Source: Gillisia sp. Hel1_33_143 (GTDB taxonomy: Bacteria; Bacteroidota; Bacteroidia; Flavobacteriales; Flavobacteriaceae). From it: a stretch of DNA of 64,000 bases. Under the pieces are notes generated by a model that was not told the origin of the DNA, ran no database searches, and saw only the letters and a program-made list of their open reading frames with translations. Below, piece by piece: positions 22,879 to 40,052 of the stretch (within the stretch, counting starts at the first letter, position 1; every line of letters begins with the position of its first letter). The stretch covers positions 1,364,001 to 1,428,000 of the forward strand of contig NZ_LT629737.1 in assembly GCF_900104765.1 (NCBI RefSeq), read 5' to 3'. The translations under genes were made by a program, and so were the position numbers.

Positions 22879-24915
22879 ATGTTCAATAAACTTATTAAGT
22901 ATTTTCTCTATAACAGGTTGGTAACGGTATTGTTGCTAATCTTTGTGATTGGTTGGGGTTTAGTAACAACTCCTTTCAATTGGAATACAGGTTTTCTTCC
23001 TAAAGATCCTGTGCCTGTAGATGCTATTCCAGATATTGGAGAGAACCAACAAATTGTATTTACAGAATGGCCTGGGCGTTCTCCTCAAGATATTGAAGAC
23101 CAGATCACCTATCCGCTAACCACTACTTTATTAGGGATCTCCGGAGTAAAATCTATTAGAAGTACCTCGATGTTCGGGTTTTCCAGCATTTATATCATTT
23201 TTAATGAAGATGTAGAATTTTACTGGTCTCGTTCTCGAGTTCTAGAAAAGTTAAATTCGCTTCAACAAGGTTTGTTACCGCCCTCTGTTTCTCCAACTTT
23301 AGGGCCCGATGCTACGGCCTTAGGCCAAGTATATTGGTATACTCTGGAAGGTAGAGATCCAGAAGGAAAGGTTACCGGAGGTTGGGATCTTCACGAACTG
23401 AGAAAGGTGCAGGATTATTACGTGAAATTAGGACTTAGTTCTGCTCAGGGAGTTTCAGAAGTGGCTTCGGTAGGAGGTTATGTTCAGGAATATCAAATAG
23501 ATGTAAATCCAGATGCCTTAAAAGCTTACAATATTGGATTAGATCAGGTAATGATGGCAGTAAAGAATTCCAATAGGGATATTGGAGCCAAAACGCTTGA
23601 GATCAATAAAGTTGAGTATTTAGTACGCGGATTAGGATATATAAAATCTGTTGAAGATATAGAGAATACCGTAGTTTCTCAGGTAGAGAATAAACCAATT
23701 CTTATAAGAGATCTAGGTGTGGTTCATCTTGGCCCGGAACAGAGACGTGGAGTTTTAGATAAAGGTGGAGCAGAAGTAGTTGGAGGAGTCGTGGTGGCGC
23801 GTTATGGTTCTAATCCGCTTCAGGTTATCAAGAATACTAAGGAAAAAATTAAAGAAATCTCTGCAGGTTTGCCTCAAAAAACTTTGGCAGATGGAACTAT
23901 AAGTAAACTTACCATTGTTCCATTCTACGATAGAACAGAACTTATAAATGAAACTGTTGGAACATTAGAAAAAGCGCTTTCACATGAAATTCTAATCAGT
24001 ATAATCGTGATCATTGTTTTGGTTTTAAATCTTCGCGCCTCTATTTTAATTTCGAGTTTATTGCCGGTTGCGGTGCTCATCACATTTATCGCCATGCGAT
24101 ATTTTGGTGTAGACGCCAACGTAGTAGCGCTTTCAGGAATTGCTATTGCTATAGGGGTTATGGTAGATGTGGGAATCGTATTCGTAGAGAATACTATCAG
24201 GTATTTGGAGATGCCGGAAAATAAAGATGCTAAAGGAGAAAGATTATTAAAGCTCATCAAAAAAGCAACTATTGAAGTTGCTCCTGCAGTCACAACAGCA
24301 TTAGCTACAACTATAGTAAGTTTTATTCCGGTTTTCTTTATGGAGCATGCCGAAGGGAAACTTTTTAGACCTCTGGCTTTCACTAAAACATTTGCCTTAG
24401 GAGCCGCATTTCTTATCGGGATTTTTGTCTTGCCAATGCTCTCTTATTTTGTTTTCAATTTACGAATTCATAGAGATAAGGTCGCGAGAATATGGAATAT
24501 TGCATTGATTGTTATCGGTCTTTTCTTAGCGATATACTTCAGTTTCTGGTTGCCATTAGCTTTAGTAGTAATTGGAATTATAAAACTTGTAGAATATAAA
24601 AACCCTCAATTTTTAGGTAGGTATTCCAACCTGATCACTATCATCATAATTCTTGCAGTTACTCTTTTCTTTTTAACTCAGGAATGGATGCCATTAGGTT
24701 TTCAGAACTCACAATTTGAGAATTATCTGTTTGTAATTGTTTTACTGGCTTTTACACTTACAGTGTTAATGGGAATTGTAAAATTCTATCAATCTATTTT
24801 GAATTGGTGTTTGCTGAATAAAGGCAAGTTTCTATTGGTTCCAATACTTACAATTTTCTTCGGAATACTGATATGGTTAGGCTTTCCGAAGATATTTGGA
24901 TTTGGTGCCGACTGA
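22879..24915 (+). CDS. CusA-type RND permease, N-terminal portion (678 residues, ends at in-frame TGA)
   Basis: Contains the first transmembrane helix, the first periplasmic porter half (NQQIVFTEWPGRSPQDIEDQ, typical of the heavy-metal HAE1/HME group), helices 2-6 with the proton-relay region (ALSGIAIAIGVMVDVGIVFVEN) and an extra hydrophobic insert (about residues 530-670) with several additional helices, which makes the whole protein longer than the usual 1040 residues. Helices 4-6 and the insert are intact, so the fragment could still insert in the membrane, but it cannot form a pump alone. Confidence 0.7.
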   Translation: MFNKLIKYFLYNRLVTVLLLIFVIGWGLVTTPFNWNTGFLPKDPVPVDAIPDIGENQQIVFTEWPGRSPQDIEDQITYPLTTTLLGISGVKSIRSTSMFGFSSIYIIFNEDVEFYWSRSRVLEKLNSLQQGLLPPSVSPTLGPDATALGQVYWYTLEGRDPEGKVTGGWDLHELRKVQDYYVKLGLSSAQGVSEVASVGGYVQEYQIDVNPDALKAYNIGLDQVMMAVKNSNRDIGAKTLEINKVEYLVRGLGYIKSVEDIENTVVSQVENKPILIRDLGVVHLGPEQRRGVLDKGGAEVVGGVVVARYGSNPLQVIKNTKEKIKEISAGLPQKTLADGTISKLTIVPFYDRTELINETVGTLEKALSHEILISIIVIIVLVLNLRASILISSLLPVAVLITFIAMRYFGVDANVVALSGIAIAIGVMVDVGIVFVENTIRYLEMPENKDAKGERLLKLIKKATIEVAPAVTTALATTIVSFIPVFFMEHAEGKLFRPLAFTKTFALGAAFLIGIFVLPMLSYFVFNLRIHRDKVARIWNIALIVIGLFLAIYFSFWLPLALVVIGIIKLVEYKNPQFLGRYSNLITIIIILAVTLFFLTQEWMPLGFQNSQFENYLFVIVLLAFTLTVLMGIVKFYQSILNWCLLNKGKFLLVPILTIFFGILIWLGFPKIFGFGAD

Positions 24916-24963
24916 TTTAATAAAATAGGCTGGAATGTAAGAACTACTTCAGTTTGGACCGGA

Positions 24964-26721
24964 ATGAGCAACACTTTTCCCGGAGTTGGGAAAGAATTTA
25001 TGCCATCTCTAAATGAAGGTAGTTTTTTATTAATGCCCACAGCCATGCCACATGCAGGGATAGAAGCTTCAAAAAACACCTTACAAAGATTAGATATAGC
25101 GGTTGCAGATATTCCTGAAATTGAAATGGCAGTAGGAAAAATGGGGCGAATTGAAAGTGCCTTAGATCCTGCGCCTATCTCTATGTTCGAGAACATCATC
25201 AACTACAAACCGGAATATATACTATCTGAAGATGGAGAGATGATGAAGTTTAAAGTTGATGATAAAGACAGATTTATCACCAAAACAAAAGATTCATTAT
25301 CTAATGAAGCTGCAATTTCAGCAAGAATTAGCAAGCAGGATTTAATAGAAGATGAGGATGGGGAATATTTTAGAAACTGGAGAGTGCAGATACAATCGCC
25401 AGACGATATTTGGGATGAAATTGTAAAACGCACCAATCTTCCGGGAGTTACCTCAGCACCAAAATTACAGCCTATAGAAACAAGGTTGGTAATGTTGCAA
25501 ACTGGAATGCGAGCACCCATGGGAATTAAAGTTTATGGGCCGGACCTTCAAACCATACAGGAATTTGGATTTAAGTTGGAAGCGCTTTTAAAAGAAGTTC
25601 CTTCGGTTAAGAAAGAAGCTGTTTTTGCCGATAGAATTGTAGGGAAACCTTATTTGGAAATCAAAATTGATAGAAATGCAATTGCCCGATATGGTTTGAG
25701 TATAGAAGATGTTCAGCAAACTTTGGAAACGGCTGTCGGTGGTATGGAAATTACCAGCACTGTAGAAGGGAGGGAGCGTTTTCCTGTAAGAGTTAGATAT
25801 CCAAGAGAACTTAGAGATGATCCTGAAAGTATCAAGAAAATATTGGTGCCAACGAGAACAGGAGCTCAAATTCCGTTAGGGGAACTGGCAGATCTTAATT
25901 ATACCAGAGGTCCGCAAATGATTAAGAGTGAAGACACCTTTTTGGTAGGTTATGTGCTGTTCGATAAAAAAGATGATTTTGCTGAGGTGAATGTCGTTAA
26001 CGATGCTCAAGCGCTTATTCAGCAGAAAATAGATTCTGGAGAGCTTGTGGTTCCAGCAGGAGTGAGTTATAAATTCTCTGGAAATTATGAAAATCAGGTG
26101 CGTGCGGTGAAGAGATTGGCGATAGTTATCCCTATAAGTTTGGTTATAATTTTCTTGTTGTTATACTTTCAGTTTAAAACCGTAATCGCTTCTACCATAC
26201 ATTTTTCCGGAGTATTTGTGGCCTTTGCAGGTGGATTTATCATGATCTGGCTTTATGGGCAAACGTGGTTTATGGACTTTGCCATTTCAGGAATGAATAT
26301 GCGAGATCTTTTCCAAATGCATACCATCAACTTAAGTGTTGCAGTATGGGTTGGATTTATTGCGCTTTTCGGAATTGCAACAGACGATGGAGTGCTGATG
26401 GGAACTTATATACATCAGGTTTTTGAGCGTAAAAATCCGAAAACAGTAAAAGAAGTAAGAGAGGCAGTAATGGAAGCCGGATTAAAGAGGGTTCGCCCCG
26501 CAATGATGACTACAGCGGTGACGATCATCGCCTTATTTCCTGTGCTAACTTCTACAGGAAAAGGAGCAGATATAATGGTGCCAATGGCAATTCCAATTGT
26601 TGGAGGAATGATCATACAGATCATGACCATTTTTGTAGTTCCGGTATTACAAGCTTACTGGAGAGAATCTGTAGTTAAAAAGGAAGAACAACAAAATCTA
26701 TCAACTAATAATGAACTTTAA
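24964..26721 (+). CDS. CusA-type RND permease, C-terminal portion (585 residues)
   Basis: Holds the second porter half (GKEFMPSLNEGSFLLMPTAMPHAG, then RIESALDPAPISM), the docking part, and the last helices (IPISLVIIFLLLYFQF; ATDDGVLMGTYIHQVFE; RPAMMTTAVTIIALFPVL). It corresponds to everything after the TGA at 24913; ATG 24964 is the first in-frame Met, 48 bp after the stop. Its C-terminus overlaps the possible first start of the TolC-like gene. If translated by restart it would complement the N-terminal half. Confidence 0.7.
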   Translation: MSNTFPGVGKEFMPSLNEGSFLLMPTAMPHAGIEASKNTLQRLDIAVADIPEIEMAVGKMGRIESALDPAPISMFENIINYKPEYILSEDGEMMKFKVDDKDRFITKTKDSLSNEAAISARISKQDLIEDEDGEYFRNWRVQIQSPDDIWDEIVKRTNLPGVTSAPKLQPIETRLVMLQTGMRAPMGIKVYGPDLQTIQEFGFKLEALLKEVPSVKKEAVFADRIVGKPYLEIKIDRNAIARYGLSIEDVQQTLETAVGGMEITSTVEGRERFPVRVRYPRELRDDPESIKKILVPTRTGAQIPLGELADLNYTRGPQMIKSEDTFLVGYVLFDKKDDFAEVNVVNDAQALIQQKIDSGELVVPAGVSYKFSGNYENQVRAVKRLAIVIPISLVIIFLLLYFQFKTVIASTIHFSGVFVAFAGGFIMIWLYGQTWFMDFAISGMNMRDLFQMHTINLSVAVWVGFIALFGIATDDGVLMGTYIHQVFERKNPKTVKEVREAVMEAGLKRVRPAMMTTAVTIIALFPVLTSTGKGADIMVPMAIPIVGGMIIQIMTIFVVPVLQAYWRESVVKKEEQQNLSTNNEL

Positions 26722-26725
26722 GAAG

Positions 26726-28000
26726 ATGGAAAGTAAAATTAAATATAGAGTGATTTTTCTACTATTCTTGTTTTTAGGATTGGTTGAGAATGATTTGAAG
26801 GCTCAAACCTTAGAGCAATACCTGCAAATAGCTGCAGAAAAAAATCCAAAGGTAAAAGCATCCTACGCCCAATTTGAAGCAGCAATGCAACAAGCGCCTC
26901 AAGTGGCAAGTCTACCAGATCCAACCTTAACTATGAGCGCTTTTGGTAAAATGATCGAGACCCGAGTTGGTGCTCAGGAAGCTAAGTTTTCTTTGATGCA
27001 AATGTTTCCTTGGTTTGGAACTTTAGACGCTAAAAGAGATGCAGCGAATTTAATGGCGGAAGCTAAATTTCAGCAATACTTAGATGTAAGAAATCAGGTG
27101 TTTTTTGAAGTAAAATCGGTGTATGCAGAGATCTACGCCATTCAAAAGACCATTCAGCTAAAACAGGAGAATTTAGAAATATTAGATTCTTATAGAGAGT
27201 TGTCTTTAAGTCGATTTAAAAGTGGAAATGCTCCTATGTCTAACATCGTAAAAGTTGATATTAAAAGGGAAGGAGCTATAACGGAGATCGAGTTGCTACA
27301 GGAACTTATTGAACCTATGCAAACCAAATTGAATTTGTTGTTATCTCAAAATTCTGAAACTCCTATTGAAACTGAAGACACTTTAAGATTTGAGATTCCG
27401 GAACCTCTAGAACTAAAAGAAGAGCTTTTTGATGCTAATCCAATGCTTGTTGTCTTAGATAAACAAGAAGAAGCTTTTAAGATGCAAGAAGTGGTTGCAG
27501 GAAAAAATGCGCTACCTATGATTGGTCTAGGAGTAGATTACTCGATTATTTCTAAAAGAACTGATGCCAATCCTGAGATGAACGGGCAAGATGCTATTAT
27601 GCCAATGCTTTCTATAAGTCTTCCAATTTTTCAGAAGAAATATAGGGCGGCGAAGAAGGAAGCAGCAATTATGAGCGAAAGTGTCGTGCATCAAAAGGAA
27701 GCTCAAAAAAATGAGTTGCAAACTATGTATGAGATGACATTATATGAAGTGAAAAAGGCTAAAAAACTCATTTCGCTTTATGATCGTCAGTTGAAAAGTT
27801 CAGATCAGGCGAATAAATTACTGATCTCCGGTTTTAGCAATGCAATTGCAGATTTTGAAGAAGTGTTGCAAATGAATCAAGATATATTAGGCTTAGAAAC
27901 TCAGCAAGTAGAGGCTTTAAAAGATGGTTTTATAGCCAGCGCAAAATTAGATTATTTACTGGCGAACCAGTCAGATGTAAATATTTCTTCCACTAAATAA
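26726..28000 (+). CDS. TolC-family outer-membrane efflux channel (CusC/CzcC-like)
   Basis: A protein of 424 residues from the ATG at 26726, chosen because it starts a good signal peptide (MESKIKYRVIFLLFLFLG) and follows AAGAAG; an in-frame ATG at 26711 overlaps the pump gene. Two OEP repeats (LEQYLQIAAEKNPKVKASYA; LFDANPMLVVLDKQEEAFKM) form the trimeric barrel-tunnel that joins RND pumps to the outside. It lies between pump and adaptor genes in the order A-C-B, so it very probably serves this copper-type exporter. Confidence 0.9.
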   Translation: MESKIKYRVIFLLFLFLGLVENDLKAQTLEQYLQIAAEKNPKVKASYAQFEAAMQQAPQVASLPDPTLTMSAFGKMIETRVGAQEAKFSLMQMFPWFGTLDAKRDAANLMAEAKFQQYLDVRNQVFFEVKSVYAEIYAIQKTIQLKQENLEILDSYRELSLSRFKSGNAPMSNIVKVDIKREGAITEIELLQELIEPMQTKLNLLLSQNSETPIETEDTLRFEIPEPLELKEELFDANPMLVVLDKQEEAFKMQEVVAGKNALPMIGLGVDYSIISKRTDANPEMNGQDAIMPMLSISLPIFQKKYRAAKKEAAIMSESVVHQKEAQKNELQTMYEMTLYEVKKAKKLISLYDRQLKSSDQANKLLISGFSNAIADFEEVLQMNQDILGLETQQVEALKDGFIASAKLDYLLANQSDVNISSTK

Positions 28001-28008
28001 TAAGAAGA

Positions 28009-29724
28009 ATGGAAACTAAAAAGATAATAGGAATTGTAATTGCCACTTTATTGGTGGGAGCATTGATTGGTTGGTTGATAAAACCAGATTCAGCAGTAAA
28101 TGAAAATGAACTTTCGCAACATGATCACGAAAATTCTGAAGAAGTTGTTTGGACGTGTTCTATGCATCCTCAAATTAGAAGGAGTGAGCCTGGAGCTTGC
28201 CCAATTTGTGGAATGGATCTTATTCCGTTGAATTCTGATGCCGGAAATGAAGGATCTGAAGCCTATCAAATGAGTGAAAATGCAATGAAACTTGCTAATG
28301 TTACTACAATGATAGTTGGAAAAGATAATGCCGAAAAAGAAATTAGATTGAACGGGAAGGTGCAGGTGGATGAGAGAAACGCCTATTCTCAATCTACCCA
28401 TATCCCAGGAAGAATTGAAAGTCTAGCGCTCAATTTTACAGGAGAAAAAGTGAGTAGAGGTCAAACGTTAGCTACTATCTATTCGCCTCAATTAGTAACA
28501 GCACAAGAAGAATTATTGCAGGCAGCAAGTATCAAAGAAAGTCAGCCGGAATTGTTTGAAGCTGCTAAAGAAAAGTTGAGAAATTGGAAAATAGGAAATT
28601 CTCAAATCGAGCGTATTCTTTCTACTGGAAAAGCGATTCAACGGTTTCCTATAAGTGCAGATGTAAATGGAATTGTAACAGAGAAAAAGGTAGAACTTGG
28701 AGATTATGTAGAACGCGGAATGCCTATTTATGAGATTTCAGATCTGTCTAAAGTCTGGGTGCTCTTTGACCTTTATGAAAGTGAATTGAATTGGGTAAAA
28801 GAAGGCAGTGAAATTGAATATACGGTGAATTCTCTTCCGGGAGAGACTTTTAAAGGGAAGATCACCTTTATAGATCCGCTTATAAATTCTCAAACCCGAG
28901 TTGCTAGCGCAAGAGTTGAGGTAAGTAACAAAGATGGGAAACTAAAGCCTGAAATGTTTGTTTCAGGAACTGTAAAAAATTCTGTTGGTGTAAAAGATTC
29001 CGAAGAGATCGTAGTTCCAAAAACTGCGGTGCTATGGACGGGAGAACGATCTGTGGTTTATGTAAAAGAAGAAGATGGATTTACGTTGAGACAGATCACT
29101 TTAGGGCCTGCCTTAAGAGATTCTTATATAGTACAAGCTGGACTTGAAACCGGGGAAGAAATTGTGGCTAACGGAACATTTACCGTAGATGCGGCGGTGC
29201 AACTTTCTGGAAGACCAAGTATGATGAATCCTTCATTTGGAGAAAAAAAGTCGGGTGCTAAGATAAGTTTGAGCGATGATGAAAAAAAGAAAATAGAAGC
29301 ATTGCTTTCAGAATATTTAAAACTAAAAGATGCCTTGGTTGCAGATGATCTTCAGCTTTCAAAAAAAGAAATCGCTGCGATAAAAACGAAGGTTGAAGAA
29401 ATCAATACTATCGGATTAAAAGGAGAAGCAGAGAAGGTTTGGAAAATGGTCAATATTCAACTTATCAATAGAACAAAAGAACTTTCAGAAGCAAAAGATC
29501 TGAAAGAGATACGAGGCGGGTTTGATGAACTTTCTTCAGAGGTGATCATGCTGGTAAGTAAATTACAAGTGTCAACTCCACTTTTTGTATTGCATTGCCC
29601 CATGGCCGATAATAATAGAGGTGCAGACTGGATTAGTCTTTCTAGCGAAGTTCTTAATCCTTATTATGGCAACGCTATGCTTGGATGTGGTGAAGTGACT
29701 AAAACTATAGGAACTCTTGAATAA
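28009..29724 (+). CDS. RND periplasmic adaptor (CusB-like) with metal-binding and DUF3347 domains
   Basis: A 571-residue membrane-fusion protein. Order: N-terminal membrane anchor (residues 4-25), a heavy-metal-binding module with WTCSMHPQI ... CPICGMDL (about 48-75), the HlyD-type hairpin and barrel domains (about 95-410), a helical linker, and a C-terminal DUF3347 domain ending in HCPMADNN ... NPYYGNAMLGCGEV. The two extra modules probably capture copper or a related soft metal and hand it to the pump. The same DUF3347 motif recurs in two separate lipoproteins of this island. Adaptor function is firm; metal identity is inferred. Confidence 0.92.
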   Translation: METKKIIGIVIATLLVGALIGWLIKPDSAVNENELSQHDHENSEEVVWTCSMHPQIRRSEPGACPICGMDLIPLNSDAGNEGSEAYQMSENAMKLANVTTMIVGKDNAEKEIRLNGKVQVDERNAYSQSTHIPGRIESLALNFTGEKVSRGQTLATIYSPQLVTAQEELLQAASIKESQPELFEAAKEKLRNWKIGNSQIERILSTGKAIQRFPISADVNGIVTEKKVELGDYVERGMPIYEISDLSKVWVLFDLYESELNWVKEGSEIEYTVNSLPGETFKGKITFIDPLINSQTRVASARVEVSNKDGKLKPEMFVSGTVKNSVGVKDSEEIVVPKTAVLWTGERSVVYVKEEDGFTLRQITLGPALRDSYIVQAGLETGEEIVANGTFTVDAAVQLSGRPSMMNPSFGEKKSGAKISLSDDEKKKIEALLSEYLKLKDALVADDLQLSKKEIAAIKTKVEEINTIGLKGEAEKVWKMVNIQLINRTKELSEAKDLKEIRGGFDELSSEVIMLVSKLQVSTPLFVLHCPMADNNRGADWISLSSEVLNPYYGNAMLGCGEVTKTIGTLE

Positions 29725-29753
29725 TGCAGTTATAATCTTAACCATTGATTAAA

Positions 29754-30323
29754 ATGATAAAAAATTACTTTATAAAAAACATGGTTTGCGATAGGTGCAT
29801 CAAGGTGGTGAGGGATGAACTTATAAACGAGGGAATAGCCGTGAAAGAAGTGCTTTTAGGAAGCGTATCTGTGGAGACAGAAGATGAGGTGGCAACTCAA
29901 GTTATTATGGAGAAGGTGCTTTCAGAAAACGGATTTATGCTCATCACAAACCCCGAATTTATTTTAGTTGAAAAAGTGAAATTGGAATTGATAAAATTGT
30001 TGGAAGATCTTCCGCTTAATCTAGACGGGAAATTATCAGAATTGTTGGCATCAAAACTAAATTCAGATTACTCCAAAATAAGCAAGATGTTCTCTGTTAC
30101 AGAAAAACTTACTATCGAGAAATATTTTATCAAGTTGAAAATTGAAAAAGCAAAAGAATTGATTCAGGCCAAAGAATTAAATTTTACAGAGATAAGTCAG
30201 CACCTTGATTACAGCAACATGAACTATTTATCTCGTCAGTTTAAAAATGAAACGGGATTGAGTATGAGTGCATATAAAGATTTGAATAAAAATTTTAGGA
30301 TTTCTTTAGACCAAATCCTATAA
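29754..30323 (+). CDS. HMA-domain AraC-family transcriptional regulator
   Basis: A 189-residue protein from the ATG at 29754 (a TTG at 29745 is also in frame). The first 65 residues resemble a heavy-metal-associated domain, with MVCDRCIKVV offering a CxxC site; the C-terminal half is a single AraC-type DNA-binding domain (KLKIEKAKELIQ, ISQHLDYSNMNYLSRQFKNE). It could bind Cu(I) and control the island in which it lies, taking the place of CueR or CopY, which I do not find here. Sensing of copper is inference. Confidence 0.83.
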   Translation: MIKNYFIKNMVCDRCIKVVRDELINEGIAVKEVLLGSVSVETEDEVATQVIMEKVLSENGFMLITNPEFILVEKVKLELIKLLEDLPLNLDGKLSELLASKLNSDYSKISKMFSVTEKLTIEKYFIKLKIEKAKELIQAKELNFTEISQHLDYSNMNYLSRQFKNETGLSMSAYKDLNKNFRISLDQIL

Positions 30324-30397: not shown

Positions 30398-30946
30398 ATG
30401 AAAACTACTTTTTTAAAGTTCACCATGATCATCTTAGCCGTGGTTTCTTTTATTTCCTGTAAAGATGTAAAGGAAAATCAAACGGTAGAGATCAATACAC
30501 CAGAAGAGGTGAAGCAGAATGAAAAGAATCTACCAGATGTTGCAGATCAGGCCTTTTTAGATGGAATGACCAGCAAGGTATGGCAGAATTATCTAGAGAT
30601 AAAAATGGCTTTGGCTAATGATGATGCAGGAACTGTAAAAGATGTTGCCAGAGAAATGGCTAAATCTTTTTCAGCAGAAAGAGTAGCTATGAAAGAGATC
30701 GCTCAGAAAATGGCGGATACGGATGATGTTGAAGTGCAACGCAATCTTTTCGCTCAATTTACAGAAAAAGCAGGGCCTATGTTTGAAGATGCGCTTTCTG
30801 CAGGTACCATCTACCAAAAGTTTTGTCCTATGGCTTTTAATAACCAAGGAGCATATTGGTATGCCGCTGTAGAGGAAGTATCCAATCCATATTTTGGTGA
30901 AAAAATGCCAAACTGTGGAGCTGTGAGCAAGACCATTAAAAAATAA
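30398..30946 (+). CDS. DUF3347-domain lipoprotein
   Basis: A 182-residue lipoprotein (lipobox FISC, Cys 21) whose C-terminal 120 residues match the DUF3347 tail of the CusB-like adaptor: an alpha-helical part, then FCPMAFNNQG ... NPYFGEKMPNCGAV. The conserved Cys, Met and the CG pair suggest a soft-metal site in the periplasm. It is probably a copper chaperone or buffer for the pump. It starts 75 bp after the regulator gene and stands 34 bp before the DUF305 gene. No biochemical function is established for the family to my knowledge. Confidence 0.82.
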   Translation: MKTTFLKFTMIILAVVSFISCKDVKENQTVEINTPEEVKQNEKNLPDVADQAFLDGMTSKVWQNYLEIKMALANDDAGTVKDVAREMAKSFSAERVAMKEIAQKMADTDDVEVQRNLFAQFTEKAGPMFEDALSAGTIYQKFCPMAFNNQGAYWYAAVEEVSNPYFGEKMPNCGAVSKTIKK

Positions 30947-30979: not shown

Positions 30980-31474
30980 ATGGAATCATCAGAAAATAAT
31001 CAACATAACATGAAGGGTAACAATTATGCCAAGTTCTTTATGATGCTTGGGTTGTCATTTGTTGCAATGTATATCACTATGTACTTAAATACGTATGAGT
31101 TTGATCATGTATATTTTAGCTTAACTCGTTTCTATATGAGTTGTTTAGGAATAGCAGCCATGGCTGTTATAATGCTATCTTTTATGCTGAATATGTATAA
31201 GAATAAGAAGAAAAATATTGCCATTTACATAGGTAGTTTGGTACTTTTTCTTGGAGCTTTAGGCTTAGTGAGAGCGCAAAGTCCTATAATTGGAGATGTG
31301 CTTTGGATGAAAGCGATGATCCCTCACCACTCTATTGCAATTCTTACCAGTAAAAGAGCAGATATTAAAGATCCTGAGGTGAAAAAGCTGGCAGAAGGAA
31401 TTATAGAAGCTCAAGAAAAAGAGATCGCACAGATGAAAAAAATGCTTTATAGATTGGAGCACGAGAATAAATAA
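30980..31474 (+). CDS. DUF305-domain membrane protein
   Basis: A 164-residue protein with about three N-terminal helices (residues 18-95) and a C-terminal DUF305-type helical part: MIPHHSIAILTSKRA, then EIAQMKKML. DUF305 proteins are ferritin-like helical proteins with the pattern MIPHH and Met/His residues and are often found near copper genes in Bacteroidota and Actinobacteria. The placement of two His and several Met in the helix fits metal binding near the membrane. It is in the same unit as the DUF3347 lipoprotein and the oxidase. Confidence 0.82.
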   Translation: MESSENNQHNMKGNNYAKFFMMLGLSFVAMYITMYLNTYEFDHVYFSLTRFYMSCLGIAAMAVIMLSFMLNMYKNKKKNIAIYIGSLVLFLGALGLVRAQSPIIGDVLWMKAMIPHHSIAILTSKRADIKDPEVKKLAEGIIEAQEKEIAQMKKMLYRLEHENK

Positions 31475-31549
31475 TATTTGATTCATCCTATAGCTAATAA
31501 GTATACCGAAAAACGGGTCAGTTTTAAAGATCGATTTAAAAATAAAAAA

Positions 31550-33934
31550 ATGTTTAATAACTATTATTTACTGACCTTATTATTGATGTCCAGTTTATCT
31601 GGATTTGCTCAAAGAGAACAGTCTGTAGAAGGAAATGTAGATGATCTTCCGGTTCATGAATACAAACTTGTACTTAAAGAAGAAATGGTTAATAAAGCCG
31701 GTAAAGAGGTAATGGGAATGACTGTAAATGGGAGTATTCCCGGTCCTAGCTTAAACTTTCAGGAAGGGGAATATGCTGTTATTTTGGTTACGAACAATAT
31801 GAGTGTAGAAACTTCTGTTCACTGGCATGGAATGCTCTTACCTAACTTCTATGACGGGGTGCCTTATGTAAGTACTCCTCCAATTAAGCCTGGAGAAACT
31901 ATGCGTTATGAATTTGCTATCAAACAATCTGGTACTTATTGGTATCATTCCCATACGATGTTGCAAGAGCAAAGCGGGGTTTATGGTTCAATAGTTATTC
32001 AGCCCAAGGAAGAAACACTTAAGTATGATAAAGATTTGGTGTTATTGTTGTCAGATTGGACCAATGAAAAACCTAAAGATGTACAACGAACTTTAAAACG
32101 TGGAAGCGAATGGTACAGTATTAAAAAAGGTACTGCTACTCCTTTAAATAAAGTTATTGAAAGAGGTGCTTTAGGAGCTCAACTCAATTTTTGGAAACAG
32201 CGAATGGAAGGGGCAGATATTGCAGATATTTATTATCCCGCATTTCTAATAAATGGTAAACAGGAAGTGGATTATCCAGACTTGGAACCCGGAGATAGAG
32301 TACGATTAAGAATTATAGACGGAGCCGCATCTACTTCTTTTTGGATGACCTTTGGAGGAGAAACTCCTACGTTGGTTTCGGCAGATGGAAAAGATGTAGT
32401 GCCGGTTGAGAAAAATAAAACCTTTATTGGAGTTGCAGAAACTTATGATTTTATAGTGACTATTCCTGAAGATGGAAAATTAGAATTCAGGATCATGGCA
32501 CAAGATGGTTCTGGAACTGCATCTGCCTTTTTAGGAAAAGGGAAAGTTTTAGAAGCTGAAAAAATAGCGCGACCAGATAAGATTGCTATGATGCAGAAAA
32601 TGGCCAAAATGGATATGACCATGGGCGCTCCTGCACTTAAATTCAGACCCGGAAAAGATGAACGTTTTGAAATGAAGCAACAATATGGAATGCATATGGA
32701 TGCTTCAACTATGAAAATGGACATGGACCATGATGCCATGAAGATGGATCATTCCGGAATGGAAATGAAGAAAGATACCATGAAAATGGACCACTCCAAG
32801 ATGGATCATTCAGCCAAGAAAATGGATATGAAGAAAGATACCATGAAAATGGGAAATTCTAAAATGGATCAATCAGCCATGAAAATGGATTCTAAGAAAG
32901 GTATGGATATGCCGGGAATAGATATGTTTTCAGAATATAATTACGACTACTTAAAAAGTCCGGAGAAAACAACATATTCTAAAGATCTTCCGGTTAATGA
33001 TATCTTATTGAACTTAACAGGAAACATGCAGCGCTATGTTTGGAGTTTAAATGGAGTTCCGTTAGCAGAAGCTGACAAGATCAAGATAAAGCAAGGAGAA
33101 GTGACTAGAATCACTTTTAATAATCTTACCATGATGCATCACCCAATGCACCTTCATGGTCACTTTTTTAGAGTTATCAATAAGAATGGAGAATATTCGC
33201 CTTTAAAGCACACGGTGAATGTTCCTCCAATGCAACAAACTACCATAGAATTTTATGGGAATGAGTATGGAGATTGGTTCTTTCACTGTCATATTTTATA
33301 TCATATGATGGGTGGAATGGCCAGAATTGTGAGTTATGATACTCCTCGAGATCCAAGAATGAAAGGATATCCAGAATCTAATCTAATTGCTGAAACCAAT
33401 CAATTTTACACTTTGGGTAAGGTAGATGCTGCTTCTCACATGACGAGCTTAAATCTTACCGCTTCCAATATTCGAAATCAGTTTAATTTGAGAGCAGAAT
33501 ATGGATGGAATAAGAATATGGAAGCAGAATTTAGCTATGAATATTATTTATATGATTGGTTGCGAGTTTTTGGAGGGGTGAATTTAGAAAATGAGAACGA
33601 TAAAAGTTTAGACCAATTAAATACCACTGCCATTGCCGGGATACGATATTTTACGCCATATATGTTTGATCTGGATGTAAGAATAGATAACAAACTGAGA
33701 CCTCAAATTAGTCTTGGGAGAGAGATCATGATCTTTCCTAGATTATCTGTATTTGGAGAATATGAATATCAGGCAGATTTTGGGTGGGTAGATGATCTTC
33801 CCGCAGGTTCAAATTATAAAAAGGAAGAGACATTAACCGTTGGAGCTCAATACTTCTTATCTAAGAACTTTTCTGTTATGGGTAGTTATGATAATAGGTT
33901 TGGTGTTGGTGGTGGACTTTCAGTAAGATTTTAA
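31550..33934 (+). CDS. Multicopper oxidase fused to a CopB-like outer-membrane barrel
   Basis: A 794-residue protein from the ATG at 31550, which starts the signal peptide MFNNYYLLTLLL; a TTG at 31478 gives a longer, unlikely start. Three cupredoxin domains carry all copper motifs: HWHGM, WYHSHT, HPMHLHGH and HCHILYHMMGGM (type 1 site). Between domains 2 and 3 lies a Met/His-rich insert of about 110 residues with a duplicated 21-residue block. After the oxidase comes about 170 residues with alternating beta-strands, YFTPYMFDLDV and a terminal Phe, like the copper-resistance barrel CopB. It should oxidise Cu(I) in the periplasm while anchored in the outer membrane. Confidence 0.88.
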   Translation: MFNNYYLLTLLLMSSLSGFAQREQSVEGNVDDLPVHEYKLVLKEEMVNKAGKEVMGMTVNGSIPGPSLNFQEGEYAVILVTNNMSVETSVHWHGMLLPNFYDGVPYVSTPPIKPGETMRYEFAIKQSGTYWYHSHTMLQEQSGVYGSIVIQPKEETLKYDKDLVLLLSDWTNEKPKDVQRTLKRGSEWYSIKKGTATPLNKVIERGALGAQLNFWKQRMEGADIADIYYPAFLINGKQEVDYPDLEPGDRVRLRIIDGAASTSFWMTFGGETPTLVSADGKDVVPVEKNKTFIGVAETYDFIVTIPEDGKLEFRIMAQDGSGTASAFLGKGKVLEAEKIARPDKIAMMQKMAKMDMTMGAPALKFRPGKDERFEMKQQYGMHMDASTMKMDMDHDAMKMDHSGMEMKKDTMKMDHSKMDHSAKKMDMKKDTMKMGNSKMDQSAMKMDSKKGMDMPGIDMFSEYNYDYLKSPEKTTYSKDLPVNDILLNLTGNMQRYVWSLNGVPLAEADKIKIKQGEVTRITFNNLTMMHHPMHLHGHFFRVINKNGEYSPLKHTVNVPPMQQTTIEFYGNEYGDWFFHCHILYHMMGGMARIVSYDTPRDPRMKGYPESNLIAETNQFYTLGKVDAASHMTSLNLTASNIRNQFNLRAEYGWNKNMEAEFSYEYYLYDWLRVFGGVNLENENDKSLDQLNTTAIAGIRYFTPYMFDLDVRIDNKLRPQISLGREIMIFPRLSVFGEYEYQADFGWVDDLPAGSNYKKEETLTVGAQYFLSKNFSVMGSYDNRFGVGGGLSVRF
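32765..32890 (+). repeat. Two tandem 63-bp repeats in the Met/His-rich insert of the oxidase
   Basis: Two adjoining 63-bp units (32765-32827 and 32828-32890) each encode 21 residues of the form MKKDTMKM..SKMD.SA.KMD. They lie in the Met/His-rich insert, similar in composition to the Met motifs of PcoA/CopA, and suggest growth of the insert by duplication. Confidence 0.85.
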
Positions 33935-33957: not shown

Positions 33958-34527
33958 ATGAAAAATGTATTTAGAGTATCAATTGTAGCAATGCTGAGTT
34001 TGTTAGCAATTAGCTGCGGAACTACGCAAACAGCTTCTGAAGCTTTGGTAGAAAACGAATTTAGGAATGATGTCTACAAAGAAATAGTAAACGACCAAGC
34101 AAAATTCATGGAATTTATGAATGTTGTTCATAATAGCAAGGAGGCAGATTCTTGGTTACTGAAAGACCATATGCAAATGATGAAAAGTGGGAAAGTGATG
34201 GAAATCATGAAAGCCAACCCAGAGATGCAGTCAAAAATGAAGAAAATGATGCAGGATAAAATGGAGAGCGACCCGGAAATGCAGATGATGATGATGAATA
34301 AAATGAAGGCTAAAATGATGGAAGATCCAACCATGAAAAATACTATGATGCAAAATATGCATGCTGAAATGAAAGCAAATCCGGAAAAGGCTGAAATGAT
34401 GATGGATAAAATGATCCAATTCTTACACGAAAACCCGGCTATGATGGATAAAATGAGAGCGAAAATGAGTGCCCATCAAGCGGAAATGGAAAAACAACAA
34501 AAAGCGGATAACAAGAACAAACAATAA
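33958..34527 (+). CDS. Met-rich lipoprotein with five 18-residue repeats
   Basis: A 189-residue lipoprotein (lipobox AISC, Cys 20). Residues 85-174 form five repeats of exactly 18 residues, with a proline at 88, 106, 124, 142 and 160, each opening a helix of the type [ND]-P-x-M followed by several Met. Met makes up roughly a fifth of the protein. Since 18 residues equal five turns of helix, Met side chains would line one face and could hold Cu(I). It follows the oxidase by 23 bp. I do not recognise a named family; copper binding is inferred from composition and context. Confidence 0.75.
   Translation: MKNVFRVSIVAMLSLLAISCGTTQTASEALVENEFRNDVYKEIVNDQAKFMEFMNVVHNSKEADSWLLKDHMQMMKSGKVMEIMKANPEMQSKMKKMMQDKMESDPEMQMMMMNKMKAKMMEDPTMKNTMMQNMHAEMKANPEKAEMMMDKMIQFLHENPAMMDKMRAKMSAHQAEMEKQQKADNKNKQ
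34210..34479 (+). repeat. Five in-frame 54-bp repeats (18-residue Met units)
   Basis: Units begin at 34210, 34264, 34318, 34372 and 34426, coding residues 85-102, 103-120, 121-138, 139-156 and 157-174. The nucleotide identity is moderate, but the Pro position and the Met spacing are fixed, so the protein period is under selection. Confidence 0.8.
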
Positions 34528-34746: not shown

Positions 34747-35334
34747 ATGAAAAATAGAGTAAGAAATGTAGCGATGTTGATCTTTTTAGGAGGAAGTCTT
34801 TTGTTTGCTTCGTGTAAAGACAATAAGAATAATGAAGAAGATACAAATCATGAGATGAATTCTGAAGACCATATGGATCATGGTAATATGATGGACGATG
34901 ATATGCATGACGCTGCAATGACAAAATCTTCAGCTAAGTTCAATAACGATCAGGTTGCTGCCATATATACTTATTATACCGAAATACAAGCAGCTCTGGC
35001 AGCAGATAAACCTCAAGATGCAAAAGACAATGCGAAGCTGATGGTTTCTTCCCTTTCCCAGGTAGAAGCAGCTAATGAAATGCTGGAACCAACCAAAAGA
35101 ATTGCTAATACAGATGATATTAACCAACAGAGGGAAGCCTTTTCCACCCTTACAACCAAGATGGGTGCTATTTTAGAAGGGGCTTTATCTAGTGGTGAAG
35201 TTTACAAATTATACTGCCCAATGGCATTTGAAGGAAAAGGAGACTACTGGTATGCAAATTCTAAGGATATAAGAAATCCATATTTTGGAGCTCAAATGCT
35301 AAAATGCGGGAGAGTGGAAGAAACAATAAAATAA
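34747..35334 (+). CDS. DUF3347-domain lipoprotein with Met/His-rich linker
   Basis: A 195-residue lipoprotein (lipobox FASC, Cys 23). An acidic His/Met-rich linker (residues about 31-60, with HEMNSEDHMDHGNMM) precedes a DUF3347 domain ending in YCPMAFEGKG ... NPYFGAQMLKCG. It is a paralogue of the lipoprotein at 30398, with the added metal-binding linker. The 219-bp gap before it holds no other gene that I can support; a TAATTTTG box at 34553 might be its promoter, leaving a long leader. Role as periplasmic copper carrier is inferred. Confidence 0.82.
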   Translation: MKNRVRNVAMLIFLGGSLLFASCKDNKNNEEDTNHEMNSEDHMDHGNMMDDDMHDAAMTKSSAKFNNDQVAAIYTYYTEIQAALAADKPQDAKDNAKLMVSSLSQVEAANEMLEPTKRIANTDDINQQREAFSTLTTKMGAILEGALSSGEVYKLYCPMAFEGKGDYWYANSKDIRNPYFGAQMLKCGRVEETIK

Positions 35335-35433: not shown

Positions 35434-35754
35434 ATGAAAAATGATACGTTAATACATGCATTAGGAAACTGTATTAATCATTGTAACTATTGTGCAGATG
35501 CATGTTTAGATGAGAAAAATGTGCAAATGATGGTAGATTGTATTAGGACAGATAGGGTTTGTGCCGAAGTATGTTCTACTTTAAACCAGTTACTAGCTAC
35601 AAATTATAAAGATGTAAACGATCTTATAAAATATTGTATTAAAGTTTGTGAGGATTGTGCAGCTGAATGCGGTAGGCATGAAGCAAAACATTGTAAAGAC
35701 TGTGCAAAAGCTTGCCAGGAATGTGTAAGCGCTTGTAAAGCTTATTTAGCTTAG
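35434..35754 (+). CDS. Four-helix bundle copper-binding protein (Csp-like, DUF326)
   Basis: A 106-residue helical protein with 16 cysteines, mostly in CxxxC or CxxC spacing along helices (CINHCNYCADAC, CIKVCEDCAAEC, CKDCAKACQECVSAC). This is the pattern of Csp copper-storage proteins, tetramers that hold many Cu(I) ions inside four-helix bundles. There is no signal peptide, so it is a cytosolic form like Csp3. It has its own promoter box and a terminator behind it. The family call is strong; the number of ions bound is unknown. Confidence 0.9.
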   Translation: MKNDTLIHALGNCINHCNYCADACLDEKNVQMMVDCIRTDRVCAEVCSTLNQLLATNYKDVNDLIKYCIKVCEDCAAECGRHEAKHCKDCAKACQECVSACKAYLA

Positions 35755-35900: not shown

Positions 35901-36353
35901 ATGAAAATACTAAAAGTAGTAGGGTGGGTTCTTCTAATCGCATTAATAGCGATTCAATTCATACCATCAAACCTAAATCAAGAAGAAGTAGATTATACAA
36001 CAGATTTTGCTACAGTTTATAATGTTCCAGAAAACGTAAATAGAGTGCTGGAGACATCCTGTTATGATTGTCATAGTAATAATACTAAATATCCGTGGTA
36101 TAATAGAATTCAACCGGTAGCGATGTATTTATCAGATCATGTAGAGGACGGAAAAAAGCATTTTAATTTTAGCGAATTTTCTTCTTATTCTTTAAAAAGA
36201 CAGAAAAAGAAACTTGATGAGGTTGCACATGAAGTGGAAGATGGAGAAATGCCTTTAGATTCATATACTTTAGTTCATTGGGATGCAAAACTTTCTGAAG
36301 CCGATAAAAAATTGGTAATAGATTGGGCAAATGAATTAAATAGCAGTCTTTAA
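35901..36353 (+). CDS. Haem-binding domain protein (Haem_bd, CxxCH)
   Basis: A 150-residue protein with an N-terminal helix (residues 5-20), then a Haem_bd domain: CYDCHSNNTKYPWYN gives the CxxCH attachment site, and YDCHSN/WYN is the family signature. The rest is charged. Such proteins are predicted periplasmic c-type haem proteins of Bacteroidota and often stand near redox or metal genes. It lies between the copper-storage and the Cu-ATPase genes, yet a terminator separates it from the former. Link with copper is by position only. Confidence 0.85.
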   Translation: MKILKVVGWVLLIALIAIQFIPSNLNQEEVDYTTDFATVYNVPENVNRVLETSCYDCHSNNTKYPWYNRIQPVAMYLSDHVEDGKKHFNFSEFSSYSLKRQKKKLDEVAHEVEDGEMPLDSYTLVHWDAKLSEADKKLVIDWANELNSSL

Positions 36354-36507: not shown

Positions 36508-39480
36508 ATGAAACATATATATAATATAACAGGAATGACCTGCAACGGGTGTAGAGCCCATGTAGAAAAAATCCTGAAGGAAGTTGATGGAGTAGATAAT
36601 GCTGATGTTAATTTGGAACATAATCAGGCTGTGATATTAATGGAGAAACAAATTCCTTTGTCAATTTTTGAGCAGGCCCTTAATGATGATGGCGGGAAAT
36701 ATAAAATTACCGATCTTAAAACTTCTACTACCAATAAAAAGTTAATGACTCATACATATACCGTAACAGGAATGACTTGTGATGGATGTAGAACTCATGT
36801 AGAAAATACGCTTAAGGGTATAAAGGGAGTTGAAGAAGCAGAAGTTAATTTGAAGAAAGAGCTAGCAGAAATTGCGATGCAAAAGCATATTCCTCTAGAA
36901 GTTTTTCAGCAAGCGCTTAAAGATCATGGTGGAAATTATGAGATTCATAACCAAGATCATTCAGCCTCTAAAGATGGTTTGATGACGCATACTTACGCTG
37001 TAGCCGGAATGACTTGTAATGGTTGCAGATCTCATGTAGAAAAAGCATTGCAGGAAGTTGAGGGAGTAGAAGAAGCGCATGTAGATCTTGACAAAGCAGA
37101 AGCTGAGATCAAGATGAAATCTCATATTCCTTTAAAGACTTTTCAAAAAGCATTGCAAGATGATGGAGATCATTATCAGATCTACAAACAAGGTGAGAAA
37201 CCAAATGCATCTTCAGTAAAAATGGTGAAACCAAAAGGGGAAGGTACCGGAACCTTCTATTGCCCAATGCACTGTGAGGGGGATAAGACTTATGACCAAC
37301 CCGGAGATTGTCCGGTTTGTGGGATGGATCTAGTAGAAGAAGTAAGTCTAAATTCAGGCGGTGAAAAATATACCTGCCCCATGCATCCTGAAATTATAGA
37401 AGATGAACCGGGTGACTGCCCTATCTGCGGTATGGATCTCGTACCTATGGAGGCGGATGTTTCTGCTGAAAAGAAATCATATCAAAAACTGCTGCGCAAA
37501 TTTAAGATAGCAGTAGCCTTTACCTTGCCTATCTTTTTGATAGCAATGTCAGACATGATTCCTAATAATCCATTGTATGATGTAATGGAGCTTAAGTACT
37601 GGAATTGGGTGCAATTTGCGCTATCACTTCCTGTAGTTTTCTATGCTACTTGGATGTTCTTTGAAAGAGCGTGGCGCTCTATAAAATTCTGGAACTTGAA
37701 TATGTTCACCTTAATTGGTATAGGTTCTGGAGTAGCATGGAGTTTTAGTGTATTTGGTTTGTTATTCCCAGATTTCTTTCCTGCTCAGTTTAAAACAGAT
37801 GAAGGAACTGTGCATATTTATTTTGAAGCAGCCACGGTAATTTTAACCTTGGTACTTCTTGGTCAGTTATTAGAAGCAAGAGCACATAGTCGTACCAATT
37901 CTGCTATAAAAGCATTATTGAAATTGGCTCCTAATAAAGCTACCAGATTGGTAAATGGAAAGGAAGAAGTTATTGCAACAGACAAAATTGTGGTGGGAGA
38001 TCTTCTTAGGGTAAAACCGGGAGATAAGATTCCTGTAGATGGTGTTATTGAAAAAGGAGAGACAAGTATAGATGAATCTATGATCACCGGAGAACCAATT
38101 CCTGTAGATAAAGCCGAAGGAGATAAAATAACTTCCGGAACTATCAATGGAAATCAAACCTTTACCATGAAGGCTGAAAAGGTAGGAGATGAAACCTTAC
38201 TTTCTCAAATAGTTAAGATGGTGAATGATGCCAGTAGGTCTCAAGCACCAATTCAAAAATTAGCCGATAGAATTTCCGGGTATTTTGTACCTATTGTTGT
38301 CTTTATCTCTCTGTTAACTTTCGCGATTTGGGCTATCTACGGGCCAGATCCAGCCTATGTTTATGCTTTTATAAATGCCATTGCCGTTCTAATAATTGCT
38401 TGCCCGTGTGCTTTAGGGCTAGCCACGCCAATGTCTGTTATGGTGGGAGTTGGTAAAGGAGCACAAAACGGAGTGCTTATTAAAAATGCGGAAGCTTTAG
38501 AGCAGATGGATGACATTGATACACTTATAATCGATAAAACCGGAACCATAACAGAAGGAAAACCTTCAGTAGAAAAAGTGGTAAGTGTTGGAAATAATTC
38601 TTCAGAAGAAAAGGCTATCAAACAAATAGCTTCTGTAAATTCTTTAAGCGAGCATCCACTTGCGCAAGCTACCGTTAAATATGCTGAAGAAAAGAATATA
38701 GAAATATCAGAAGCATCTAATTTCAAATCGGTTACAGGAAAAGGAGTGATGGCTAATTTGGAAGGAAATTCCATTGCGATTGGTAATGATAAACTGATGA
38801 AGCAGATTAATGCAACAATTTCCGAAGAACTTCAAAAACAAATAAGTGCAGAGCAAAAGTTAGGAAAAACGGTATCTTATCTTGCAGTAGATGCTATTAT
38901 TTCCGGCTATGTAACTATTACAGATCCAATTAAGAAGACCAGCAAAAAGGCTATTCAGAATTTGATGGATGCCGGAGTTGAGGTATATATGCTTACCGGA
39001 GATAATGAGAATACTGCCAAAGCAGTGGCAGACGAATTACATTTAAGCGGATTTAAAGCAGGTCTCTTGCCTCAAGATAAACTTAGTGAAGTAAAGCGTT
39101 TACAAGCAGAAGGTAAGAAAGTAGCCATGGCTGGAGACGGTATTAACGATGCTCCTGCCTTAGCGCAGTCTAACGTTGGGATTGCTATGGGTACTGGTAC
39201 AGATGTAGCTATAGAAAGTGCTAAGATCACTTTAGTTAAAGGAGATCTTCATGGGGTGGTAAAAGCGAAAAAACTTAGTAATAAAGTAATGCGAAATATT
39301 AAGCAGAACTTATTTTTTGCGCTTATCTACAATTCTGTTGGAGTTCCTATTGCCGCGGGTGTTTTATATCCGTTCTTTGGATTGTTATTATCACCTATGA
39401 TCGCTGCTTTAGCAATGAGTTTTAGCTCGGTTTCTGTAATTGCTAATGCCTTAAGATTAAAAAATTCTGATCTGGATTAA
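36508..39480 (+). CDS. copA: Copper-translocating P1B-type ATPase with three HMA and two metal-binding modules
   Basis: A 990-residue inner-membrane pump exporting Cu(I). Three HMA domains (about residues 1-70, 80-148, 159-228), each with GMTC[ND]GC, are followed by two heavy-metal-binding modules (CPMHCEG..CPVCGMDL at 252-275; CPMHPEI..CPICGMDL at 290-311). Then come the membrane helices, the actuator loop with TGEP, the ion-binding C632-P-C634, the phosphorylated D676-K-T-G, and GDGINDAP. Most relatives have one or two HMA domains, so the N-terminus is unusually long. A hairpin terminator follows. The 154-bp gap before it shows no gene. Confidence 0.96.
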   Translation: MKHIYNITGMTCNGCRAHVEKILKEVDGVDNADVNLEHNQAVILMEKQIPLSIFEQALNDDGGKYKITDLKTSTTNKKLMTHTYTVTGMTCDGCRTHVENTLKGIKGVEEAEVNLKKELAEIAMQKHIPLEVFQQALKDHGGNYEIHNQDHSASKDGLMTHTYAVAGMTCNGCRSHVEKALQEVEGVEEAHVDLDKAEAEIKMKSHIPLKTFQKALQDDGDHYQIYKQGEKPNASSVKMVKPKGEGTGTFYCPMHCEGDKTYDQPGDCPVCGMDLVEEVSLNSGGEKYTCPMHPEIIEDEPGDCPICGMDLVPMEADVSAEKKSYQKLLRKFKIAVAFTLPIFLIAMSDMIPNNPLYDVMELKYWNWVQFALSLPVVFYATWMFFERAWRSIKFWNLNMFTLIGIGSGVAWSFSVFGLLFPDFFPAQFKTDEGTVHIYFEAATVILTLVLLGQLLEARAHSRTNSAIKALLKLAPNKATRLVNGKEEVIATDKIVVGDLLRVKPGDKIPVDGVIEKGETSIDESMITGEPIPVDKAEGDKITSGTINGNQTFTMKAEKVGDETLLSQIVKMVNDASRSQAPIQKLADRISGYFVPIVVFISLLTFAIWAIYGPDPAYVYAFINAIAVLIIACPCALGLATPMSVMVGVGKGAQNGVLIKNAEALEQMDDIDTLIIDKTGTITEGKPSVEKVVSVGNNSSEEKAIKQIASVNSLSEHPLAQATVKYAEEKNIEISEASNFKSVTGKGVMANLEGNSIAIGNDKLMKQINATISEELQKQISAEQKLGKTVSYLAVDAIISGYVTITDPIKKTSKKAIQNLMDAGVEVYMLTGDNENTAKAVADELHLSGFKAGLLPQDKLSEVKRLQAEGKKVAMAGDGINDAPALAQSNVGIAMGTGTDVAIESAKITLVKGDLHGVVKAKKLSNKVMRNIKQNLFFALIYNSVGVPIAAGVLYPFFGLLLSPMIAALAMSFSSVSVIANALRLKNSDLD

Positions 39481-39563: not shown

Positions 39564-40052
39564 TTATTTTCTTCTTCTTTCCTCAGCCTTTTTGCCGTCT
39601 TTATTATTCCATTTCTTATCACCATCTTTTTTCATCTTATGATGTTTTTTAGCTTCGTGTTTATTTGCCATATATTTCCACTTTTTGAATTGATCTTCAT
39701 TTAAGATCTTCTTCATCTTATCTTGCTGCGCCAATTGCATGTCTAAACGACGGTCCATCATTTTAAAACGATCTTTATCTGCCTTAGCATCATGTTTCAT
39801 CGCTTTATGCTCGGCCATCATCTTATCATGCGCTTTTTCATTCTCAGTGAAAAGTTTCTGAAGATCATTTTGCTGAGATTGATTAAGATCTAATTTCAAC
39901 GTCATCTTCTTAGATTTAAGAGTGGCTCTTTGTTCGGCAGTCATCTCAGATCTATCCTGACGATTCTTTCTCTCCTGCATCTGGTCTCTTTGTGCAAAAG
40001 TTGCTACAGAGAATAACATCATTACTATAATTCCTATTTTTTTCATTTTCAA
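39564..40052 (-). CDS. Spy/CpxP-like periplasmic protein, Lys/Met/His-rich
   Basis: A 162-residue exported protein (signal peptide MKKIGIIVMMLFSVATFAQ) made of charged helices, with an LTxxQ-like stretch (LDLNQSQQNDLQKLF), similar to Spy/CpxP chaperones and the periplasmic metal-sensor CnrX/ZraP group. The tail is rich in His, Lys and Met (KHEAKKHHKMKK). It stands at the end of the copper island, convergent with copA. A role as an envelope-stress chaperone or metal buffer is inferred; weak sequence similarity keeps the family call open. Confidence 0.65.
   Translation of the reverse strand: MKMKKIGIIVMMLFSVATFAQRDQMQERKNRQDRSEMTAEQRATLKSKKMTLKLDLNQSQQNDLQKLFTENEKAHDKMMAEHKAMKHDAKADKDRFKMMDRRLDMQLAQQDKMKKILNEDQFKKWKYMANKHEAKKHHKMKKDGDKKWNNKDGKKAEERRRK

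Follow-up and report, generated by a model that had tools for sequence, protein, structure and literature searches.

Why would a small lipoprotein encoded among copper genes be built from methionine-rich units of one fixed length? The window, i.e. the whole 64,000-nucleotide stretch of Gillisia sp. Hel1_33_143 DNA analysed here, contains such a gene at 33958..34527 on the forward strand, which begins with ATG, encodes 189 amino acids and is present as one copy in the genome. A preliminary description had read the product as a lipoprotein with five exact 18-residue helical repeats and had suggested a repeated Cu(I)-thioether scaffold.

A methionine-rich lipoprotein with evenly spaced prolines

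In lipoproteins, the signal peptide ends before the cysteine of the lipobox. The 189-residue protein has a signal peptide at residues 1–19 (33958..34014, +) that precedes the lipobox cysteine Cys20, and a Cys is found there in most relatives, so the assignment as a lipoprotein was borne out by the sequence. A helical N-domain follows at approximately residues 26–87 (34033..34218, +), as judged from conserved alignment columns and predicted helices, and is common to a second Met-rich family. The remainder is a Met-rich tail with five units, all on the forward strand and each delimited by the proline spacing, a predicted helix and a methionine face: residues 88–105 (34219..34272), 106–123 (34273..34326), 124–141 (34327..34380), 142–159 (34381..34434) and 160–177 (34435..34488), the last without a closing N/D-P. 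The unit sequences are PEMQSKMKKMMQDKMESD, PEMQMMMMNKMKAKMMED, PTMKNTMMQNMHAEMKAN, PEKAEMMMDKMIQFLHEN and PAMMDKMRAKMSAHQAEM.

The protein has prolines at residues 88, 106, 124, 142 and 160 and no others, exactly 18 residues apart as first described, and when five prolines were placed at random in the mature part, equal spacing by any constant occurred in 0 of 200,000 placements. Residues 70–177 contain 32 methionines. The self-identity of residues 71–175 was 0.32 at a lag of 18 and 0.35 at a lag of 36, with the remaining lags from 1 to 40 at 0.08–0.23. The methionines were also said to occupy similar places in each unit, and this agreed with the Met–Met pairs in the tail, which peaked at lags 18 (16 pairs) and 36 (15 pairs), with lag 14 as the next best (13 pairs) among lags up to 39. 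The term exact repeat holds for the length of the five units, which is identical, but not for their sequences, which differ. Tandem Repeats Finder found no 54-bp array in the window gene, though it did find one in relatives.

A family without a name and without a single period

A scan with A2 in one genome per species, which was seeded by a pair of short peptide patterns and does not amount to a census, gave 69 loci, all from Bacteroidota by title. When the window protein was the query, 10 of 99 genomes, its own included, were matched; a search with A1 matched 34 of 299 genomes from a Flavobacteriaceae-level set at 1e-5, and a search with A3 matched 8 of 395 genomes sampled across the phylum at 1e-10. 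The alignment A3 holds the window protein and 67 distinct proteins from loci L016–L084, each at 150 bits or more, and omits identical copies, the weak relatives in L082 and L084 and the second Met-rich family. In its 68 rows, Cys20 is at least 90% conserved and columns of the N-domain are conserved as well. The constant features of the family are the short N-domain and units of the form P-E-M-x3-M-x3-M(-x3-M). Methionine occupies positions 3, 7, 11 and 15 in 90, 98, 98 and 88% of 85 distinct 18-residue units, and positions 3, 7 and 11 in 94, 100 and 100% of 18 distinct 14-residue units.

The exact 18-residue period was considered as a family hallmark and was rejected. With unit spacing measured between prolines beyond residue 60 that are preceded by N, D, E, K, H or S, the distances over all A3 rows were 18 (111 cases), 50 (42), 15 (30) and 14 (22) residues plus minor classes. 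The period was pure in only 10 of the 68 proteins, and these form one clade; the remaining rows mix 14, 15, 18 and longer gaps. Homologues lacking the period, which the preliminary description would have taken as evidence against it, are thus the majority, and the period stands only within the clade of the window protein. In a tree of the 68 proteins this 10-row clade had an SH-aLRT value of 100 by a quick method; the window protein groups first with three Gillisia proteins and one from a bin named as Flavobacterium, and two proteins from Christiangramia and three from Lutibacter join next. In all ten rows the tail contains steps of 18 residues only, four in succession, and five of the rows carry extra prolines upstream of this run. 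Outside the clade, the protein in L075 has four steps of 18 followed by 14 and 27. In Aequorivita (three genes in L067, and L036) a 54-bp array with 3.0–3.1 copies at 85–87% was found by Tandem Repeats Finder, so the 18-codon block is a duplication unit there.

The claim that no named family has this repeat stood up, as no Pfam or NCBIfam model reached its cut-off with the window protein. Matches to DUF6841 (E 0.0064), RecA_C, SATase_N and CofD_related were all under the curated cut-offs and were judged to be composition noise. The window protein and the protein in L031 had no match among PLSDB plasmids, and we found no paper on the family in a literature search that left subscription journals and preprints mostly outside its coverage. 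The proteins are a real, conserved family that is nameless in Pfam and NCBIfam.

Two pairs of loci from records with different genus names share about 91% DNA identity over approximately 15.7 kb: L031 and L043 (Christiangramia and Luteirhabdus) and L045 and L081 (Psychroflexus and Mesonia). One of these four is a metagenome bin. This similarity across genera suggests that the copper island has spread horizontally.

A second family of nameless Met-rich lipoproteins, A4, is often encoded near the repeat gene (L036:11239-11700, L058:7189-7614, L060:9129-9635 and ten others). The two families were matched by hhalign at 98.2% (E 5e-14) over the signal, the N-domain and part of the tail, from shallow alignments of biased composition, and their N-domains look related. 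In contrast to the repeat family, A4 has no N-P units and has an invariant Cys at position 123.

Predicted helices and selection on methionine

The helical units expected for the protein were predicted by AlphaFold2 from 68 aligned sequences (mean pLDDT 81.7, pTM 0.37), with one helix per unit at residues 88–104, 106–122, 124–140, 142–158 and 160–188 and a break at the single N or D residue before each proline. The model was less sure for the protein in L031, from the other main branch (pLDDT 70.4, pTM 0.31), and had breaks of a similar kind. As the pTM values are low, the models do not give the packing of the helices. Foldseek returned 0 matches in the PDB at E 10 for these two models, and a search with A3 against the sequences of solved structures gave C4HR1_4r (E 0.0034) and stathmin-4 as the best hits, which were judged to be generic helix matches. 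When the window units were placed on an ideal helix, the methionines fell on one face, with a vector strength of 0.47 that was reached in 0 of 5000 shuffles, and the acidic residues lay about 147 degrees away; over the 85 distinct family units the angle from methionine to acidic residues was about 171 degrees.

The repeat gene is under purifying selection, with a dN/dS of 0.10–0.13 between the window and L016, L017 and L019. In the same comparisons, 28–29 of 32 methionines in the repeat region were kept, versus 55–56 of 76 other residues. In the family, Met makes up 29% of the tail and L+I+V+F 3.3%, with no Cys, whereas in the N-domain of these proteins the shares are 5.9% and 22.1%. In the 37 columns with a Met majority, 2139 of 2464 residues were Met and 150 were L, I, V or F, though these columns were selected for Met (at least 50% Met and at least 60 filled rows). 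Since methionine is kept as methionine and rarely becomes L, I, V or F, the pattern points to a constraint on the thioether itself, with the reservation that the columns were picked for Met.

This pattern bears on a reading in which the methionines provide greasiness and flexibility rather than metal ligands. The N-P-capped helices would then form a Met-rich hydrophobic groove, as in STI1-like chaperones, and hold exported or membrane proteins under copper stress. With the Pfam XPC-binding model, which describes a Rad23 domain of STI1 type, matches at E ≤0.1 were obtained for 54 of 68 members (best 1.3e-8). Scanned singly, 6 of 11 members passed its cut-off, and these 6 gave no match when reversed. 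The capped helices thus do bear a resemblance to STI1-type domains, which likewise have short Met-rich helices opened by N-P. The STI1 grooves of ubiquilin are described as methionine-rich, with conserved prolines at turns, in the part of the source drawn on here (PMC13083928). However, the match spans only about 30 residues, and neither the window protein nor that of L017 matched the model; L020, L024, L029 and L068 matched below the cut-off only, so that within the window clade L020 and L024 fall short of it. The L020 protein also passes the cut-off of the unrelated SATase_N, and such sequences can therefore pass cut-offs by chance. A generic hydrophobic surface would not be expected to show so few changes from Met to L, I, V or F, and Foldseek gave no PDB match for either of the two models, both of low pTM. 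We consider a chaperone function quite unlikely, and the resemblance to the eukaryotic, protein-binding domains is read as more probably convergence than distant homology.

Linkage to copper genes

In the window, the repeat gene lies in a copper island whose genes, with one exception at the edge, are on the forward strand. At the upstream end is a CusA-like RND pump (22879..26721, named by eye) in two ORFs, 22879-24915 and 24964-26721, with a short gap that may be a frameshift, a sequencing error or a true split. It is followed by an outer-membrane efflux protein (26711-28000) and a CusB-like adaptor (28009-29724), a pair with matches to PF02321, PF16576 and PF11827. The adaptor carries DUF3347 and a heavy-metal-binding domain and so links the two free DUF3347 genes of the island to efflux. 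Next are an AraC-type regulator (29745..30323; PF12833, 40.9 bits), a DUF3347 lipoprotein-like gene (30398..30946; PF11827, 31.8 bits, above cut-off), a CopM-like DUF305 membrane protein (30980..31474; PF03713, 43.7 bits, above cut-off; NCBIfam CopM, 47.6 bits, under the cut-off of 90) and a CopA-type multicopper oxidase (31478..33934) with three Pfam Cu-oxidase domains above cut-off and 417 bits with TIGR01480, under its cut-off of 479. The end of the oxidase and the start of the repeat gene are separated by 23 bases. Downstream are a second DUF3347 gene (34747..35334; PF11827, 40.2 bits, above cut-off), a Cys-rich four-helix copper-storage-like gene with DUF326 (35434..35754; PF03860, above cut-off; TIGR04401 Csp1, 49 bits, under the cut-off of 100), a haem-binding domain protein (35901..36353; PF14376, 172 bits) and a heavy-metal P-type ATPase with three HMA domains (36508..39480; PF00122 and PF00403). 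Scans for promoters (18 versus 16.8 in shuffles) and terminators (2 versus 2.0) gave no excess, and the operon structure is therefore based on gene spacing alone.

About 200 additional residues at the C-terminus of the window oxidase (approximately residues 620–818) end in Phe and match Porin_4 at 20.3 bits, under the cut-off of 27; they may form an outer-membrane barrel joined to the enzyme. The best oxidase ORF is at least 700 amino acids long in 45 of 52 oxidase-bearing loci. On the reverse strand at 39564-40052 is a Met/Lys/His-rich exported protein with 17.9 bits for LTXXQ, under the cut-off of 24.3; it lies where the island ends and may be a chaperone for metal stress of the Spy/CpxP kind.

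The expected co-occurrence with copper genes held in the relatives. A copper-type gene was present in 63 of the 69 loci, which span many genera and include some that are near-identical, and in 0 of 20 random 16.4-kb loci, which came from four genomes of the single genus of the window and were kept clear of 60 kb around one repeat gene per genome. A multicopper oxidase match was present in 52 of the 69 loci. Among the 299 genomes, a CopA-type oxidase was called at 1e-60 in 28 of 34 with a repeat match versus 42 of 265 without (Fisher 7.6e-15), and in 13 of 14 with a strong repeat match (E 6e-50 or better, a threshold set after the matches had been viewed) versus 57 of 285 (2.9e-8); as the loci and the genomes are related, these P values overstate independence. 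None of the 299 genomes had a TIGR01480 match at the NCBI cut-off, so these oxidases were called under that cut-off. In 9 of the 14 strong genomes the repeat gene and an oxidase match were no more than about 4 kb apart.

One reading of this proximity is that the repeat protein works specifically for the adjacent oxidase, as a copper donor or a partner in maturation that loads Cu(I) into the enzyme or supplies it with Cu(I) as substrate. The short gap in the window, the oxidase matches in three-quarters of the loci and an oxidase immediately upstream of 19 of 70 repeat genes are in line with it. Yet 17 of the 69 loci have no oxidase match within the locus DNA, one genome (G227) has the repeat family without the oxidase, and in two others (G294 and G332) the two genes are far apart or on separate contigs. 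The varying unit number also suits a capacity better than a fixed docking partner, and we regard a donor role as unlikely.

The copper linkage is strong but not absolute. The preliminary description had counted homologues without a link to metal genes against it, and there are a few: no copper-type gene was found within the locus DNA of L041, L044, L056, L059, L060 and L084 (6 of 69), of which L044 has just 224 bases upstream and L084 holds a weak relative. L062 was counted as copper-linked through a DUF305 gene alone. The Algoriphagus copies in L059 and L062, and probably L041, adjoin genes that by eye are aldehyde dehydrogenase-like.

Some of the exceptional loci have stress or redox genes (aldehyde dehydrogenase-like and universal-stress-like by eye), and L059 encodes a VKOR-domain protein. 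Together with a tail that is very rich in Met and free of Cys, they would suit a sacrificial oxidant sink, in which Met absorbs peroxide or hypochlorite from copper cycling and is repaired by methionine sulfoxide reductases. Pfam scans of 12 distinct window proteins revealed no such reductase, a sink would have no use for the strict one-face register of the helices, and the genes to which the family is linked are copper genes; this role is very improbable.

By motif counts, an amino-acid permease-like gene precedes 26 of 70 repeat genes and a DUF302-like gene follows 30 of 70, in a similar order in many loci. In L031 both were confirmed with Pfam, a permease (L031:6660-7964; PF13520) before and DUF302 (L031:8816-9202) after the repeat gene. 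A survey of copper genes in Bizionia argentinensis describes an oxidase, an RND pump and an ATPase, with no Met-rich protein shown in the part drawn on here (PMC11213822). The Bizionia argentinensis locus L083 does encode such a protein, and the surveyed cluster looks like the same cluster.

A probable copper buffer

We favour the reading that the repeat lipoprotein is a periplasm-facing, lipid-anchored buffer for Cu(I), and probably also for Ag(I), with metal binding inferred from the sequence and its setting. In Bacteroidota, acidic residues directly after the lipobox Cys bear on where a lipoprotein is located. The window protein has none directly after Cys20, and the anchor is therefore placed, by inference, at the periplasmic face of the outer membrane. 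The i, i+4 methionine stripes on neighbouring short helices would create many weak thioether sites, which would catch free Cu(I) and hold it until it is converted by the oxidase or exported by the Cus pump. A log beta of 8.18 marks the single Cu(I) sites of tri-Met mimics as weak, and Met-rich domains are described as acting like a "Cu sponge" in the part of the source used here (PMC11840665).

The closest known counterparts include small exported proteins that, like the repeat protein, lie in metal clusters. SilE, a periplasmic protein with Met/His motifs, binds six Ag+ and folds to helix, and SilE and PcoE share with the repeat family their repeated helical motifs with ligands i, i+3/i+4 apart; in the part of the report drawn on here, SilE has a 20-residue signal, is disordered without metal and is not described as a lipoprotein (PMC5008109). 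In contrast, the repeat family has a lipobox and N/D-P-capped units and is nearly pure in Met (H 3.2%, M 29%). Among the Pfam and NCBIfam matches of the window protein there was no model for SilE or PcoE, and the two were set apart by their descriptions. CopM and other DUF305 proteins are, in the portion of the literature used here, Met-rich exported proteins beside copper genes with a preference for Cu(I) (PMC4335983). They differ in having DUF305 with an H-H motif; the repeat protein matched neither DUF305 in Pfam nor CopM in NCBIfam, and the DUF305 gene of the window at 30980-31474 is a separate one. The Met-rich domain of CueO-type oxidases also has many methionines and collective weak Cu(I) binding, as far as the source drawn on describes it (PMC11840665), but it is an insert in an oxidase, whereas the repeat protein is a separate lipoprotein with capped periodic units. 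The repeat lipoprotein most likely works like SilE and is built differently, i.e. it is a metal sponge of a known kind in a new build.

Because the sites repeat, the capacity of such a buffer could change by gain or loss of units. As 18 residues make five helical turns and 14 make about four, blocks could be gained or lost while the Met stripe stays on the same face. More tentatively, the family may be a modular copper-buffering scaffold in which the unit number sets the capacity, an independent bacterial, metal-binding counterpart of the methionine groove of eukaryotic STI1 domains. Once characterised, the repeat family would add a part to copper handling in Bacteroidota. It could serve as a clean system in which periodic helices bind through thioethers only, and the unit number would become testable as a dial for metal capacity.
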